Shown piece after piece: positions 56,658-64,000 of a stretch of DNA of 64,000 nucleotides. The notes beneath the pieces were generated by a model. That model had not been told where the DNA came from. It made no database searches and worked only from the letters and a program-made list of their open reading frames with translations. Numbering within the stretch: position 1 is the stretch's first letter; each line of letters starts with the position of its first letter. Source of the DNA: a virus. The position numbers and the translations under genes were made by a program. Location of the stretch: IMG/VR virus record IMGVR_UViG_3300037083_000054, positions 58,835-122,834 of that record, one strand, 5' to 3'.

Positions 56658-56724
56658 GCATGCCCGTTTAATATGAATCCTGCCCGTTTATTCAGGTCAA
56701 AACGGCATTAAACGGGCAAAGCCG
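56658..56724 (+). repeat. Terminal repeat of a second insertion
   Basis: GGCATGCCCGTTTAAT, CTGCCCGTTTATTCAGG, GGCATTAAACGGGCAAAGCC: nearly the same as 9232-9298. It abuts the interrupted release-factor-like gene. The matching left end was not found in the window. Confidence 0.65.
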
Positions 56725-56876
56725 CTTTATTCTGCTGCTGGCTTCGTTCTGTCTCGCATCGAACGAGCATTCCAGTCGGCTTGTGCTTCACCTGGACAGC
56801 CGATTCAGTTTTGTTGCGATGCTGACCGCCCGGACCGGACCCGCGACAGGTTGAGATTTCAAGGTCGGATTCATTG
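56725..56876 (-). pseudogene. 3' part of the release-factor-like gene
   Basis: Reads leftward: [20 protein letters not shown] then [16 protein letters not shown] and [17 protein letters not shown] is the peptidyl-tRNA hydrolysis motif of class I release factors. It continues in frame from the 59018-59331 part if the IS between them is removed. The end after QNKA is replaced by the terminal repeat at 56658-56724. Confidence 0.75.
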
Positions 56877-56932
56877 GGTAACGATATACTTCGCTCAGAA
56901 CTTTGCAGGTAATTGAAAATGAAAAACCGACG

Positions 56933-57067
56933 TTACTTTTTTCGCTTCTTGGCTTTGTTCTTGGCCAGCTTTTTATCGAGTTCGGCCTTCGGAACCTTGA
57001 CCAGCTTCGATGCCAAATCCTTGAATGCTCCGAAGCCACGCGGCTTCCTTTCCGGTACGTCTGTCAC
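56933..57067 (-). CDS. Small Lys-rich protein at the IS end
   Basis: 44 residues from GTG 57067 (AGGAG upstream), GFGAFKDLASKLVKVPKAEL then DKKLAKNKAKKRKK. A very basic small ORF after an ISXO2-like transposase, possibly an accessory protein. It starts 11 bases after the transposase stop. Confidence 0.5.
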   Translation of the reverse strand: MTDVPERKPRGFGAFKDLASKLVKVPKAELDKKLAKNKAKKRKK

Positions 57068-57077
57068 AATCAATCTC

Positions 57078-58037
57078 CTATTGAATTCCCATGAAACCGG
57101 CATCGTCGATTCCGGCCAACTTACGATAAGTCAGCCGCTTTCCGACGACACCTTTGAGCAGCTTGAAAAACCGATAGCAGTCGTTCACTTTTCGCTGATT
57201 AAATCTCCAAGCCTGCTCGTGACAGTATCTGTGCAGGTGGAACGGCATCACAGCAACGTAGGTTCCCTTCAGTGCTCGTTTGAGCAGGGACCAGAAGTTT
57301 TCAACGCTGTTCGTATGGCATCGCCCGCGAACAAACTCAATCGCATGGTCGACGGCGCTGTGCCGGTATCGGTTGTGCAACGATCCATAGGCCGTGGCCG
57401 CGTCAGTGTAGACGAACGAATCGGCCTCTACGTTGCGAATGATGTTTCCAGCCAAGTTCTCAGCGTCGGCAGCAGGAACGACGAACGTCCTGACATTTCC
57501 TTCGCGTTCCAAGATTCCCTGCACGGCTGTTTTGTTGACCGCTCCCCGACCGTCAATCAGTTTCTTTCGTCGGCCAGCATGCATGTTTTTAGCTTTACCA
57601 CCGACGAATGTTTCATCAGATTCGACTTCGCCATTCATTTTACGGAAGTCGTCCGTCTCCATCGCAACGCGGATTCTGTGAAGCATAAACCACGCCGTTT
57701 TTTGGGTGACGCCGATTGCTCGGCCAAGCTCGTGAGAACTGACACCGTTCTTGCAATTAGCGATCGACCAGACGGCCACAAACCACTTGTCCAGGCCAAG
57801 CGGCGAATCCTCGAAAATGGTGTCAATCTTGTACGAGAATTGCTTTTTGCAGGTCCGAACATTGCATTGAAGTTGTGGACGGCCTTTAACTGGAGTCACC
57901 GATTTTCCTTCACACTTCGGGCAGACAATCTCGCCGTTTGGCCATTTCAGATCGGCCATGACTTCGTTGCAGCGGGCCGGATCGGAAAAGTAGCGGACGG
58001 CTTCGATAAGAGTTTTTGGGAGAGCATTATCTGCCAT
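57078..58037 (-). CDS. IS1595-family (ISXO2-like) transposase
   Basis: 319 residues, full length. N-terminal zinc ribbon CPKCEGKS...CNVRTCKKQF; then an ISXO2-like DDE/DDxN-type core with SDETFVGGKAKNMHAGRRKK, FVYTDAATAYGSL and HTNSVENFWSLLKRALKGTY. It begins 10 bases after the methyltransferase stop with AAGGA upstream. The first ~85 residues recur almost unchanged in the truncated copy at 62884. Confidence 0.9.
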   Translation of the reverse strand: MADNALPKTLIEAVRYFSDPARCNEVMADLKWPNGEIVCPKCEGKSVTPVKGRPQLQCNVRTCKKQFSYKIDTIFEDSPLGLDKWFVAVWSIANCKNGVSSHELGRAIGVTQKTAWFMLHRIRVAMETDDFRKMNGEVESDETFVGGKAKNMHAGRRKKLIDGRGAVNKTAVQGILEREGNVRTFVVPAADAENLAGNIIRNVEADSFVYTDAATAYGSLHNRYRHSAVDHAIEFVRGRCHTNSVENFWSLLKRALKGTYVAVMPFHLHRYCHEQAWRFNQRKVNDCYRFFKLLKGVVGKRLTYRKLAGIDDAGFMGIQ

Positions 58038-58046
58038 AATTGTTCC

Positions 58047-58724
58047 TTAATCGCAACCCCACTGAGCGGCCATAGCATTCGCAATTCCAGCGTAAGTAAC
58101 CGAACGAATGGACCAGCGATCATCGGAGGGCGGAAGCCTGTTTTGGCCGCCGTCTGTCTGATTCGACCATCGTTCGACAACTTTTCCAGTTCTCGGATCA
58201 GTCACAAACCGTCCTTGAAATCTCCGTGTATGTCGAAGCGTCGGCAAACCTATCAACCAGAGGCACGTCTTTTTGCTGGCGTCTTCCCCAAAGTCATACG
58301 GTTGAATGTATTGATCTGGTTCCCGCCACCGAGTCGAAAGAATACCAACAGGATTCTCAAAGCATTGCCGTGGGATGCCGCTATCACGAATCCTGTAAAC
58401 GAATTCAATGGATTGTTCTCTGGCTTCGCGGCGTGCTTTTCCGGCGAGAGTTCCCGGCTTAATCCTTTGATGATAACCGACTTCAGGGTATCGCTCGAAG
58501 TCTGGCTCTTTGTAAGCCCATTCCGCCGAGCCTGTCATGAATGTGCATGTGGGGAAGAATATCCCGATGTCCCAGTCTCTGTCGAGAACCGTCAACACGT
58601 CGCATTGCAAATGTTTTCCGCCCGTTTTGCAGGGCAGCAAGTCGCAAGACCATGCGTCATGGCCGAGAGCGGCAAAGGCGTCCCTGACACGTCCTGAAGA
58701 TTCACAGCCGAGCAATACACGCAC
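58047..58724 (-). CDS. Cytosine-C5 methyltransferase-like protein
   Basis: 225 residues. RVLLGCESSGRVRDAFAALG followed by HDAWSCDLLPCK matches motif I and the acidic loop of phage-type C5-MTase-fold proteins. IGIFFPTCTFMTGSAEW stands where C5 enzymes have the PC catalytic loop (here PTC), and ECFENPVG-like RQCFENPVGIL follows. The residue order suggests a functional fold, but classical PCQ is absent, so activity is uncertain. It is a passenger of the IS and could modify DNA against restriction. Confidence 0.65.
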   Translation of the reverse strand: MRVLLGCESSGRVRDAFAALGHDAWSCDLLPCKTGGKHLQCDVLTVLDRDWDIGIFFPTCTFMTGSAEWAYKEPDFERYPEVGYHQRIKPGTLAGKARREAREQSIEFVYRIRDSGIPRQCFENPVGILSTRWREPDQYIQPYDFGEDASKKTCLWLIGLPTLRHTRRFQGRFVTDPRTGKVVERWSNQTDGGQNRLPPSDDRWSIRSVTYAGIANAMAAQWGCD

Positions 58725-58896
58725 TTGACTGCTCCTTTGTGAGTTGGGATTCCATGCGAGTTACAAAATACTCGTAATCAAATTCATAACGATCCATCAT
58801 GGCGTACACTTTTTCGCAAGGTCGCATTTCGCACCGCAACTGAGCAAGCGTCAATCCGAGACTTTTGACATCGATCAAAAACTGTTCATAGGTCAT
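58702..58896 (-). CDS. Small first ORF of the IS operon
   Basis: 64 residues, MTYEQFLIDVKSLGLTLAQL with helical pattern and FDYEYFVTRMESQLTKEQSS. Overlaps the methyltransferase start by 23 bases. The first passenger behind the shared promoter; unrelated to the first gene of copy B. Confidence 0.5.
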   Translation of the reverse strand: MTYEQFLIDVKSLGLTLAQLRCEMRPCEKVYAMMDRYEFDYEYFVTRMESQLTKEQSSACIARL

Positions 58897-58929
58897 TTTG
58901 AAACTCCCGTTCGTGTGTGTGACAGAAGT

Positions 58930-58958
58930 ATTATCGTCTCTGCGTTGTTCTGAGTCAA
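58930..58958 (-). promoter_or_regulatory. IS operon promoter, copy A
   Basis: On the minus strand TTGACT, 17-base spacer, GATAAT. The boxes and most of the region up to the terminal repeat match copy B at 61421-61449. Confidence 0.75.
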
Positions 58959-59017
58959 CTACTAACCGTGAGAAACGGCAATTATTCCAAAAGTTCTGAG
59001 TCAAGTAGGTCGTTACC

Positions 59018-59331
59018 ATTCATTGAGTCGGAACTCTGCGGGCGTGATATCCCGGAAGACGGCGACCGTGACAGTCGAAGAATGAACTTTCCCTTTGCGT
59101 TCGTTCGGTGGAACACGCTGCCATCGGTGTCCGCCGGATTCGTGCTTGAAGAGTTGCCATGCAGTCGGTCCGCAGACCTTCACGACGATCATGCCAATCA
59201 GGTCATTGACGATTTCGACGCTAAAGGCAACTCCGTCGAGCGGCCTTCAAATAGACCGACAGTTGCTCGCGGACTAAAGACTTCGCATCATCGCCACCTT
59301 CACCGGCTCGAATCTCAATCCATGCGTTCAT
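59018..59331 (-). pseudogene. 5' part of a release-factor-like gene (RF1-type)
   Basis: From ATG 59331: MNAWIEIRAGEGGDDAKSLV, EQLSVYLKAARRSCL, then an in-frame TAG. After a +1 shift the frame continues SVEIVNDLIGMIVVKVC, WQLFKHESGGHRWQRVPPNE and RKGKVHSSTVTVAVF, the codon-recognition domain of a class I release factor. HRWQRVPPNE aligns with the RF1 HRVQRVPxTE region. The gene is broken by the IS at 59018 and by a second insertion at 56725. As found it cannot give the full protein. Confidence 0.75.
59220..59234 (-). other. Candidate +1 programmed frameshift (CTT TAG C)
   Basis: Minus strand GGAG-TTGC-CTT-TAG-C. It has the same parts as the RF2 (prfB) site: a Shine-Dalgarno-like GGAG just upstream, a slippery CTT and an in-frame stop followed by C. 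Reading after a +1 shift restores homology to release factors on both sides. Confidence 0.65.
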
Positions 59332-60850: not shown

Positions 60851-61366
60851 ATGGCAACTTATCGAATTCATGCAGATTTGATCGACGGCGAATTCATGAA
60901 GACATTTCGCAGCATGAAGTCAGTCGTGGCATATGTCGATTCGATGGAAGACTTCGGCGATGACGGCAGGCGACCTTGGGGCTTTCAAGGCGAGTTCGGC
61001 CCATTTTCCTTTGAGGGCTTCTCATGGGCTGAGATTCATCGCTGCAAGAATAATTACTACCGAAATCATGTGGATGTTGTCGAATGCCAAGCCGACTGGA
61101 AGCTGGTCGAATGGCTCCCGAATCCAGTGACCGGCTATGCAGAATCGGCACAGCTATTCGCATGGGCATATAACGCGACGCATCAAGGATCGTTCTTCGA
61201 GGTCCGTGCCGTGATGGGGCGATATCATGTCACCGCCTTTGATTCCGAATCGCAATACGAAGACGACTGCGGTTTCGAAATCGGTCGATATCGCTCAATG
61301 GAAGATGTCCAGGCGGCAATCGTTCGATGGAGCTTGGCTCCCAAGGCTTCGCGATTCGAATGGTAA
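60851..61366 (+). CDS. Hypothetical protein truncated by an IS end
   Basis: 171 residues from ATG 60851. TYRIHADLIDGEFMKTFRSM, FSFEGFSWAEIHRCKNNYYR, GSFFEVRAVMGRYHVTAFDS. The stop TAA is inside the terminal repeat GGTAACG of the copy-B element at 61362, so the C-terminus has been cut. Not recognised. Confidence 0.5.
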   Translation: MATYRIHADLIDGEFMKTFRSMKSVVAYVDSMEDFGDDGRRPWGFQGEFGPFSFEGFSWAEIHRCKNNYYRNHVDVVECQADWKLVEWLPNPVTGYAESAQLFAWAYNATHQGSFFEVRAVMGRYHVTAFDSESQYEDDCGFEIGRYRSMEDVQAAIVRWSLAPKASRFEW

Positions 61367-61420
61367 CGATATACTTCGCTCAGAACTTTTGAAATAATTT
61401 TCATTTCTCACGATTAGTAG

Positions 61421-61449
61421 TTGACTCAGAACATTCGGGAGACGATAAT
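61421..61449 (+). promoter_or_regulatory. IS operon promoter, copy B
   Basis: TTGACT (61421-61426), 17 bases, GATAAT (61444-61449). Homologous to the copy A promoter in both boxes and spacer length. Confidence 0.75.
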
Positions 61450-61500
61450 ATACTCAGTCAATCGCACTTCGCGGTTGCGGAACTCGAAAAGGAATGAATC

Positions 61501-62883: not shown

Positions 62884-63240
62884 ATGTCCGACCTTCCAAA
62901 AACTCTGATCGAAGCCGTCCGGTACTTCTCTGATCCGGCCCGATGCAATGAGGTCATGGCCGACCTGAAGTGGCCTGATGGTGAGATTGTTTGTCCGAAA
63001 TGCGGCGGTAAATCGGTGACTCCAGTTAAGGGCCGTCCACAACTTCAATGCAATGTTAGGACCTGCAAAAAGCAGTTCTCGTACAAGATTGACACTATCT
63101 TCGAAGATAGCCCGCTGGGCCTCGATAAATGGTTCGTGGATATGAAACCGCCGGGAAGGCTCGCATGGCTGCAATGGGAGCCGCGAGAGCAAAAGGACGT
63201 GGACGATTCGCTGGCGTCTGCACTGGCGATTGGGATGTAG
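62884..63240 (+). pseudogene. Truncated IS1595-family transposase
   Basis: The first ~85 codons (LPKTLIEAVRYFSDPARCNE through DSPLGLDKWFV) are almost identical to the intact transposase at 57078-58037, including the zinc ribbon. After KWFV (63139) the sequence is unrelated and the frame ends at 63240. The catalytic domain is missing. Confidence 0.85.
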
Positions 63241-63323: not shown

Positions 63324-64000
63324 ATGGCCGACGAAACGACAGTTGCAGAAATGCAGAAACCTCATCTCTGGACCGATGGTGGCGACAAGGTGTTAATTCT
63401 CCGCCGCTGCAATGCGGATATGACATCAAGCAACGATTTCAAATATCCAGAATCGGGAGTGGTCAAATGTCCTGACTTCGAGCCGTCAACTCAATGCGGC
63501 GGCGGTCTGCATGGATGGCCGTGGGGAATGGGGCTCGGTGAAGGATCGGATTACGACATTATCATCGATAAATGGTTGATCATCGCTGCCTTCCCGGATG
63601 ATATTGTCGGTGAACTCGAAGGCAAATCGAAATGCAAGATCCGTCGCGGCGACGTGATTCACTGTGGGTCGTTTTCGTCGGCTTGGAATCTGATTAACTC
63701 TGGCCGACATCGACTGATTGATGCAATGGCGATTGTTAAGTCCGTCAATGCAAGTGGCGATAACGGTGCCCAATTGGCCAGTTCTGGATACGGTGCCCGA
63801 TTGGCCAGTTCTGGATACGATGCCCAATTGGCCAGTTCTGGATACGGTGCCCGATTGGCCAGTTCTGGAAACGATGCCCAATTGGCCAGTTCTGGAAACG
63901 ATGCCCAATTGGCCAGTTCTGGAAACGATGCCCAATTGGCCAGTTCTGGAAACGATGCCCAATTGGCCAGTTCTGGAAACGATGCCCGATTGGCCAGTTC
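63324..64000 (+). CDS. DUF7666-like protein with 9-residue repeats, partial
   Basis: Starts at ATG 63324 (GGAG upstream) and is open to the window edge. Residues ~1-140 form a domain (HLWTDGGDKVLILRRCNADM; CGGGLHGWPWGMGLGEGS) like phage DUF7666 proteins. From ~residue 148, repeats of A-(Q/R)-L-A-S-S-G-(N/Y)-(D/G) follow, which probably form a beta-solenoid. The 3' end and total repeat number are unknown. Confidence 0.7.
   Translation, partial: MADETTVAEMQKPHLWTDGGDKVLILRRCNADMTSSNDFKYPESGVVKCPDFEPSTQCGGGLHGWPWGMGLGEGSDYDIIIDKWLIIAAFPDDIVGELEGKSKCKIRRGDVIHCGSFSSAWNLINSGRHRLIDAMAIVKSVNASGDNGAQLASSGYGARLASSGYDAQLASSGYGARLASSGNDAQLASSGNDAQLASSGNDAQLASSGNDAQLASSGNDARLAS
63765..64000 (+). repeat. 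27-bp tandem coding repeats
   Basis: About nine head-to-tail 27-base units such as GCCCAATTGGCCAGTTCTGG plus AAACGAT, nearly identical at DNA level. They encode the 9-residue units of the last gene and continue past the edge. Confidence 0.9.

Follow-up and report, generated by a model that had tools for sequence, protein, structure and literature searches.

The locus studied here raises the question whether a phage release-factor gene is expressed across an in-frame stop codon by programmed frameshifting, or whether the stop merely reflects the decay of the gene. The original prediction was an RF2-style +1 shift at CTT-TAG-C in an RF1-like factor. The stretch of DNA analysed (the window, 64,000 nucleotides) comprises bases 58835-122834 of a 122,834-base IMG/VR record and carries other phage genes, e.g. 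for a DNA polymerase processivity factor and a nicotinamide phosphoribosyltransferase.

The interrupted gene in the window

The gene was read on the minus strand from an ATG at 59331 through 36 codons to a TAG at 59223-59221. Release-factor homology runs in frame 0 up to this TAG and resumes in frame +1 beyond it. The site has the order GGAG-TTGC-CTT-TAG-C, with GGAG at 59234-59231, CTT at 59226-59224 and the final C at 59220. Reading in +1 from CTT gave SVEIVNDLIG...GGHRWQRVPPNER...AEFRLNE, ending near 59019. The joined protein matched the Pfam PCRF domain with 71 bits (1.5e-19), and the pieces taken separately with 19.8 bits (7.4e-4) and 47.7 bits (2.2e-12). The features of the locus are listed in Table 1.

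Table 1. Features of the release-factor gene and of the element inserted in it (window coordinates).
Feature	Position	Strand	Evidence
Zero-frame ORF, start of release-factor decoding domain (MNAWIEIRAGEGGDDAK...RRSCL), ends at internal TAG	59221..59331	-	PCRF match
Shine-Dalgarno-like stimulatory sequence GGAG, 4 nt upstream of CTT	59231..59234	-	GGAGG in family consensus, roughly 3 nt from CTT
Shift site CTT TAG C	59220..59226	-	CTT before stop in 119/119 distinct shifted relatives
+1-frame continuation, remaining decoding domain, reading head RVPPNE	59019..59222	-	PCRF match
8-bp target-site duplication CAATGAAT, gene side 1	59018..59025	-	
IS1595-family insertion, 2,141 bp, 39-nt inverted ends, interrupts gene	56877..59017	-	PF12762 2.3e-36
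Transposase within the element	57078-58037		PF12762 2.3e-36
Second ORF within the element	58047-58724		
8-bp target-site duplication CAATGAAT, gene side 2	56869..56876	-	
Detached GGQ domain piece, truncated after ERSQQQNK	56711..56872	-	tblastn, 65% identity to L015 residues 105-159

The gene had been described as broken by two insertions. It is indeed broken, and one insertion was identified: an IS1595-family element splits the gene before GGQ and leaves the GGQ piece on its far side. The last ~60 codons are missing as well. Because of the insertion and the lost C-terminus, the window copy is a pseudogene of a phage gene whose intact relatives need recoding, and the question can therefore be answered only from these relatives.

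Two further observations were made in this part of the record. At 61353-61450 and 62884-63240, additional ends of an IS1595-like element of this type lie in opposite orientation, together with a truncated transposase fragment, which suggests repeated insertion of such elements. At 63708-64000, a 27-nt direct repeat array corresponds to a nonapeptide repeat, (N/Y)DAQLASSG, in an ORF running off the contig end.

Conservation of the CTT-stop site

A first scan yielded four viral relatives with 46-51% identity. In the nearest homologues (L003-L006), the stop was present at the identical codon in four out of four, three times as CTT TGA C and once as CTT TAG C, so that CTT-stop is kept and TAG itself is variable. 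The site is preceded by AGGTGT or AGGGGT, and the +1 frame runs through GGQ to a normal stop. A continuous frame in close homologues would have spoken against the predicted shift; none of the four has one, and the prediction stands.

Profile scans of IMG/VR and GTDB contigs returned 412 loci with 272 distinct genes. Among the latter, 119 can be decoded in full only with a +1 shift; they represent 118 distinct site contexts and fall into about 90 clusters at 72% identity. As in the window, CTT lies directly before the in-frame stop and the coding frame continues in +1 in all 119. The stop is TGA in 94 genes, TAG in 22 and TAA in 3; 112 sites are at the window position, six are ten codons further on, and one is elsewhere. 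At other positions of the shifted genes, CTT accounts for 231 of 1786 leucine codons (13%). Measured against the leucine codon usage of those genes, the nominal chance of CTT at 119 of 119 sites is log10 P ~ -119, a value that relatedness makes less extreme, by too little to matter.

The family consensus is CGG AGG GGT CTT TGA C. Shine-Dalgarno-like matches of at least 4 nt were found upstream of 82% of the sites versus 28% of control leucine codons, with a modal spacing to CTT of 3 nt, as in prfB (4 nt for GGAG in the window); in 21 of the 119 shifted sites the match is 3 nt or shorter. A few members (L028, L035, L041, L042 and L095-L097) have a continuous frame and no CTT at the shift codon, showing that the recoding gate can be lost.

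The original prediction had allowed for a simple decay mutation. Such decay, or a sequencing error, would make the in-frame TAG the product of an indel in a once-continuous gene, and the window copy is indeed broken elsewhere by the IS and by loss of its C-terminus. The same site is, however, shared by 119 distinct genes, including genes in complete genomes of cultured bacteria, and purifying selection acts on both sides of it. An upstream indel as the source of the internal stop is thereby refuted for the family, and for the site decay is scarcely conceivable, even though the window copy is a pseudogene through the IS. In Nannocystis species the recoded gene lies in collinear flanks. One Nannocystis pusilla strain (Na p29, L122) shows CACCTTGACC, one T fewer, at the site and another frame change upstream, both probably assembly indels; another N. 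pusilla strain (L149) has the normal site.

Reinitiation after the internal stop would give two separate proteins without any frameshift, and some annotated phage entries consist of a fragment only (BFVD A0A6J5T9T2, 164 aa). In only 5 of the 119 genes, though, does an ATG follow the site within 10 codons, and any of ATG, GTG or TTG in 32. The peptide before the stop forms the conserved beginning of domain 2, and reinitiation leaves both CTT and the Shine-Dalgarno spacing unexplained. This route was rejected on the scarcity of start codons and is very improbable.

The encoded factor and its in-frame UGA relatives

The family protein has about 220 aa. Its start aligns to residue 110 of E. coli RF1, so residues 1-109, and with them domain 1, are absent. 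A representative was compared with the equivalog models and stayed below the cut-off of each. It scored 226 bits with RF1 (TIGR00019/NF001859, cut-off 400), domain 1 being absent, and at most 148 bits with RF2 (TIGR00020, cut-off 370), where PPT or PPN stands in place of SPF and domain 1 is again missing. The PrfH model (TIGR03072, cut-off 167) gave 89 bits, and no RtcB neighbour was found. The general features of RF1-like class-I factors are present, i.e. GGQ, a PxT reading head and the RF1 fold, with GGQ detached in the window. The predicted fold of L028, a naturally continuous member, had a mean pLDDT of 91.5 and matched ribosome-bound RF1 with a TM score of 0.94. The reading head HR[W/I]QRVPPTE...HTS is alike in the shift-UGA, shift-UAG, shift-UAA and in-frame-UGA classes; its Gln is invariant and PxT is kept in all classes, including those with UGA sites. 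PPN replaces PPT in the window gene and some of its nearest relatives, and some members carry S-P-T. The family protein is thus an RF1-like class-I release factor, with an activity predicted from RF1 homology and fold. The sequences show the site, its conservation, its positional identity, the RF1 homology and the fold.

Large phages carry the recoded factor, which also has a sporadic occurrence in Myxococcota and proteobacteria. Minicystis rosea and Nannocystis possess ordinary prfA and prfB genes, the latter with its own CATCTTTGAC site, and in addition a PrfH-like gene; the recoded gene is therefore a further class-I factor in these bacteria. The PrfH-like domain was located in much longer open frames of 711, 483 and 388 aa (L425, L426 and L427, from Nannocystis and Minicystis), with scores slightly under the cut-off for PrfH. 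Among 96 sampled genomes from the phylum of Nannocystis, a second match, shorter than RF1, was obtained only in Nannocystis, and the gene is therefore sporadic in the phylum. Eleven phage records examined contained no other RF1-family gene. No RtcB was detected in 10 of these 11 records or among 82 neighbours, and a search for a conserved gene neighbourhood found none.

These data bear on a role as a PrfH-like rescue factor, in which slow termination on impaired ribosomes would switch on synthesis and the product would release peptides there. Domain 1 is missing as in PrfH, the occurrence in phages and sporadic hosts fits a role in conflict, and synthesis gated by failing termination would suit such a function. 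Against this, the score is far below the PrfH cut-off and nearest to RF1, the stop-reading residues are kept, RtcB is absent as described, and a separate PrfH-like gene exists in the same genomes. Membership in PrfH was rejected on the low score, the lack of an RtcB partner and the coexisting PrfH-like gene, and the rescue role is regarded as improbable.

A sister group of 84 distinct genes (13 clusters) has a single frame with one in-frame TGA at the same residue; this TGA aligns to Trp144 of E. coli RF1, as does the CTT in the shift group. The 80 viral genes of the group carry one TGA each versus 168 TGG, and their flanks are mostly open when translated with the standard code. The proteobacterial members are from Jiella, Rhodovibrio, Sphingomonas and Variovorax (in Variovorax the TGA is further on), and their hosts have RF1 and RF2 without internal stops. 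Genome-wide use of TGA as Trp was rejected in view of the TGG use, the standard-code flanks and the uninterrupted host RF1 and RF2. On the simplest reading, the UGA that takes the place of the shift is probably read through as Trp, likely by tRNA-Trp. At a proteobacterial site about 10 codons downstream, genes with a CTT TGA +1 shift (L130, L156, L157, L162) and genes with an in-frame TGA (L101, L151, L120) are intermixed, which suggests that the two devices replace each other or interconvert.

Several huge-phage relatives (L007, L010, L011 and L012, i.e. LR745206, LR756504, LR756501 and LR756502; also L078 and L118) have one or two in-frame TGAs elsewhere, around residues 41, 46 and 53-54. 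Their flanks look no less open when TGA is taken as a stop than when it is taken as sense; these codons may act as additional readthrough gates, in some genes double ones, or reflect a reassignment of TGA.

Proposed mechanism and relation to known systems

The best explanation overall, considered quite probable, is an RF1-like phage factor without domain 1 whose intact relatives are gated through recoding by the general termination capacity of the cell. We infer from the sequences how efficient the shift is, what triggers it, which codons the factor reads and what it does. Fast decoding of the internal stop would end translation after some 37 codons. Under slow termination, the Shine-Dalgarno-like GGAGG would pair with 16S rRNA, tRNA-Leu would slip from CUU to UUU, and translation in +1 would continue to an active factor of ~220 aa. 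The protein would thus be made mainly while stop codons are read slowly, and the gate would sense how much capacity for termination the cell has overall, rather than the activity of the factor alone.

Strict self-regulation of the prfB type, in which the factor terminates at its own internal stop and synthesis falls as it builds up, is a rather unlikely alternative. It matches the prfB architecture exactly, but requires that the factor recognise all three stop codons (UGA, UAG, UAA), for which a hybrid P-P-T motif might account. The middle Pro of P-P-T is common to the S-P-F of RF2, some members carry S-P-T, and plain autoregulation would fit equally well if P-P-T reads all three stops. RF1-type factors, however, do not read UGA, and the predicted RF1-like specificity therefore conflicts with self-termination at this codon, the RF1-like head being present in all classes. 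Stop identity changed about 20 times on the tree among the shifted genes (e.g. between the close relatives L331 with UAG and L242 with UGA), and no correlation of the internal stop with the PPT/PPN motif was seen across the family classes. A gate on general termination capacity is favoured because UGA, UAG and UAA freely replace one another at the site with no departure from the RF1-like reading head. In the original prediction, an RF1-like recognition region was coupled to autoregulation through the factor's own UAG; the former was borne out, and the latter does not hold as a general rule for these stops.

A broader proposal would see in the family a further phage-spread class of bacterial release factors whose synthesis is gated by slow termination through interchangeable recoding devices, either a CUU-stop +1 shift at any of the stop codons or readthrough of a UGA in frame at the same residue. 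The class would serve as general sensor of termination stress and as backup, and giant viruses of eukaryotes would have reached this solution independently; the chances for and against the proposal are judged about equal. Two questions become testable with the family: whether a recoding gate follows the specificity of its own product or the overall capacity for termination, and for what reason phages encode release factors. Recoding also explains the truncated or pseudogene-like look of such genes.

For prfB, the CTT-stop shift is textbook knowledge. In a survey of this gene, TAG was absent from the shift site, and nothing credible was found for a shift in prfA (PMC12421855). Among release factors, only an RF2 cluster is named in a part of the GeneTack report (PMC3711429), and the CUU-stop cases in RECODE are all prfB (PMC10885494). 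According to a review of 2016, RF2 genes with in-frame UGA readthrough and a UAG/RF1 counterpart were unknown in bacteria, and the giant-virus case was pointed out (PMC5009743). Close counterparts of both appear to be present in the family, in over 100 distinct phage genes and in cultured bacteria such as Nannocystis, Minicystis and Rhodovibrio. No bacterial or phage counterpart was found in the open-access literature, and a prior description elsewhere is possible; a large release-factor family with a skipped premature stop is apparently undescribed. The mechanism is of a known kind, whereas the gene family and the site variation are new.

The shift resembles that of prfB in the Shine-Dalgarno-like GGAGG or AGGGGG 3 nt before CTT, the CTT slip codon, a stop usually followed by C, the +1 direction and the location in a class-I factor gene. 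Unlike prfB, the family gene is RF1-like and lacks domain 1; its site lies at RF1 Trp144 inside domain 2 instead of in the N-terminal region, and it uses UAG and UAA, whereas prfB never uses UAG (PMC12421855). With prfA it shares the reading head (Gln, PxT), the GGQ domain and the best sequence and fold match, but it lacks residues 1-109, reaches about half the equivalog cut-off, forms a separate clade and, unlike prfA, has a recoding stop (PMC12421855). PrfH is likewise a class-I factor without domain 1 and of sporadic distribution; the family differs from it in the low score, the reading head and the missing RtcB partner, and Nannocystis and Minicystis have both genes. The closest parallel is the eRF1-type gene of Mimivirus (R726) and Megavirus (mg280), which combines UGA readthrough, probably as Trp, with a shift at CUU UAG C or CUU UAA C (PMC3521657). 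There, too, a viral release factor is recoded and the stop varies between relatives. The protein of these amoebal viruses is, however, of the eRF1/aRF1 type, unrelated to RF1/RF2 apart from GGQ, and both devices occur in one gene, whereas the phage family has mostly one per gene.
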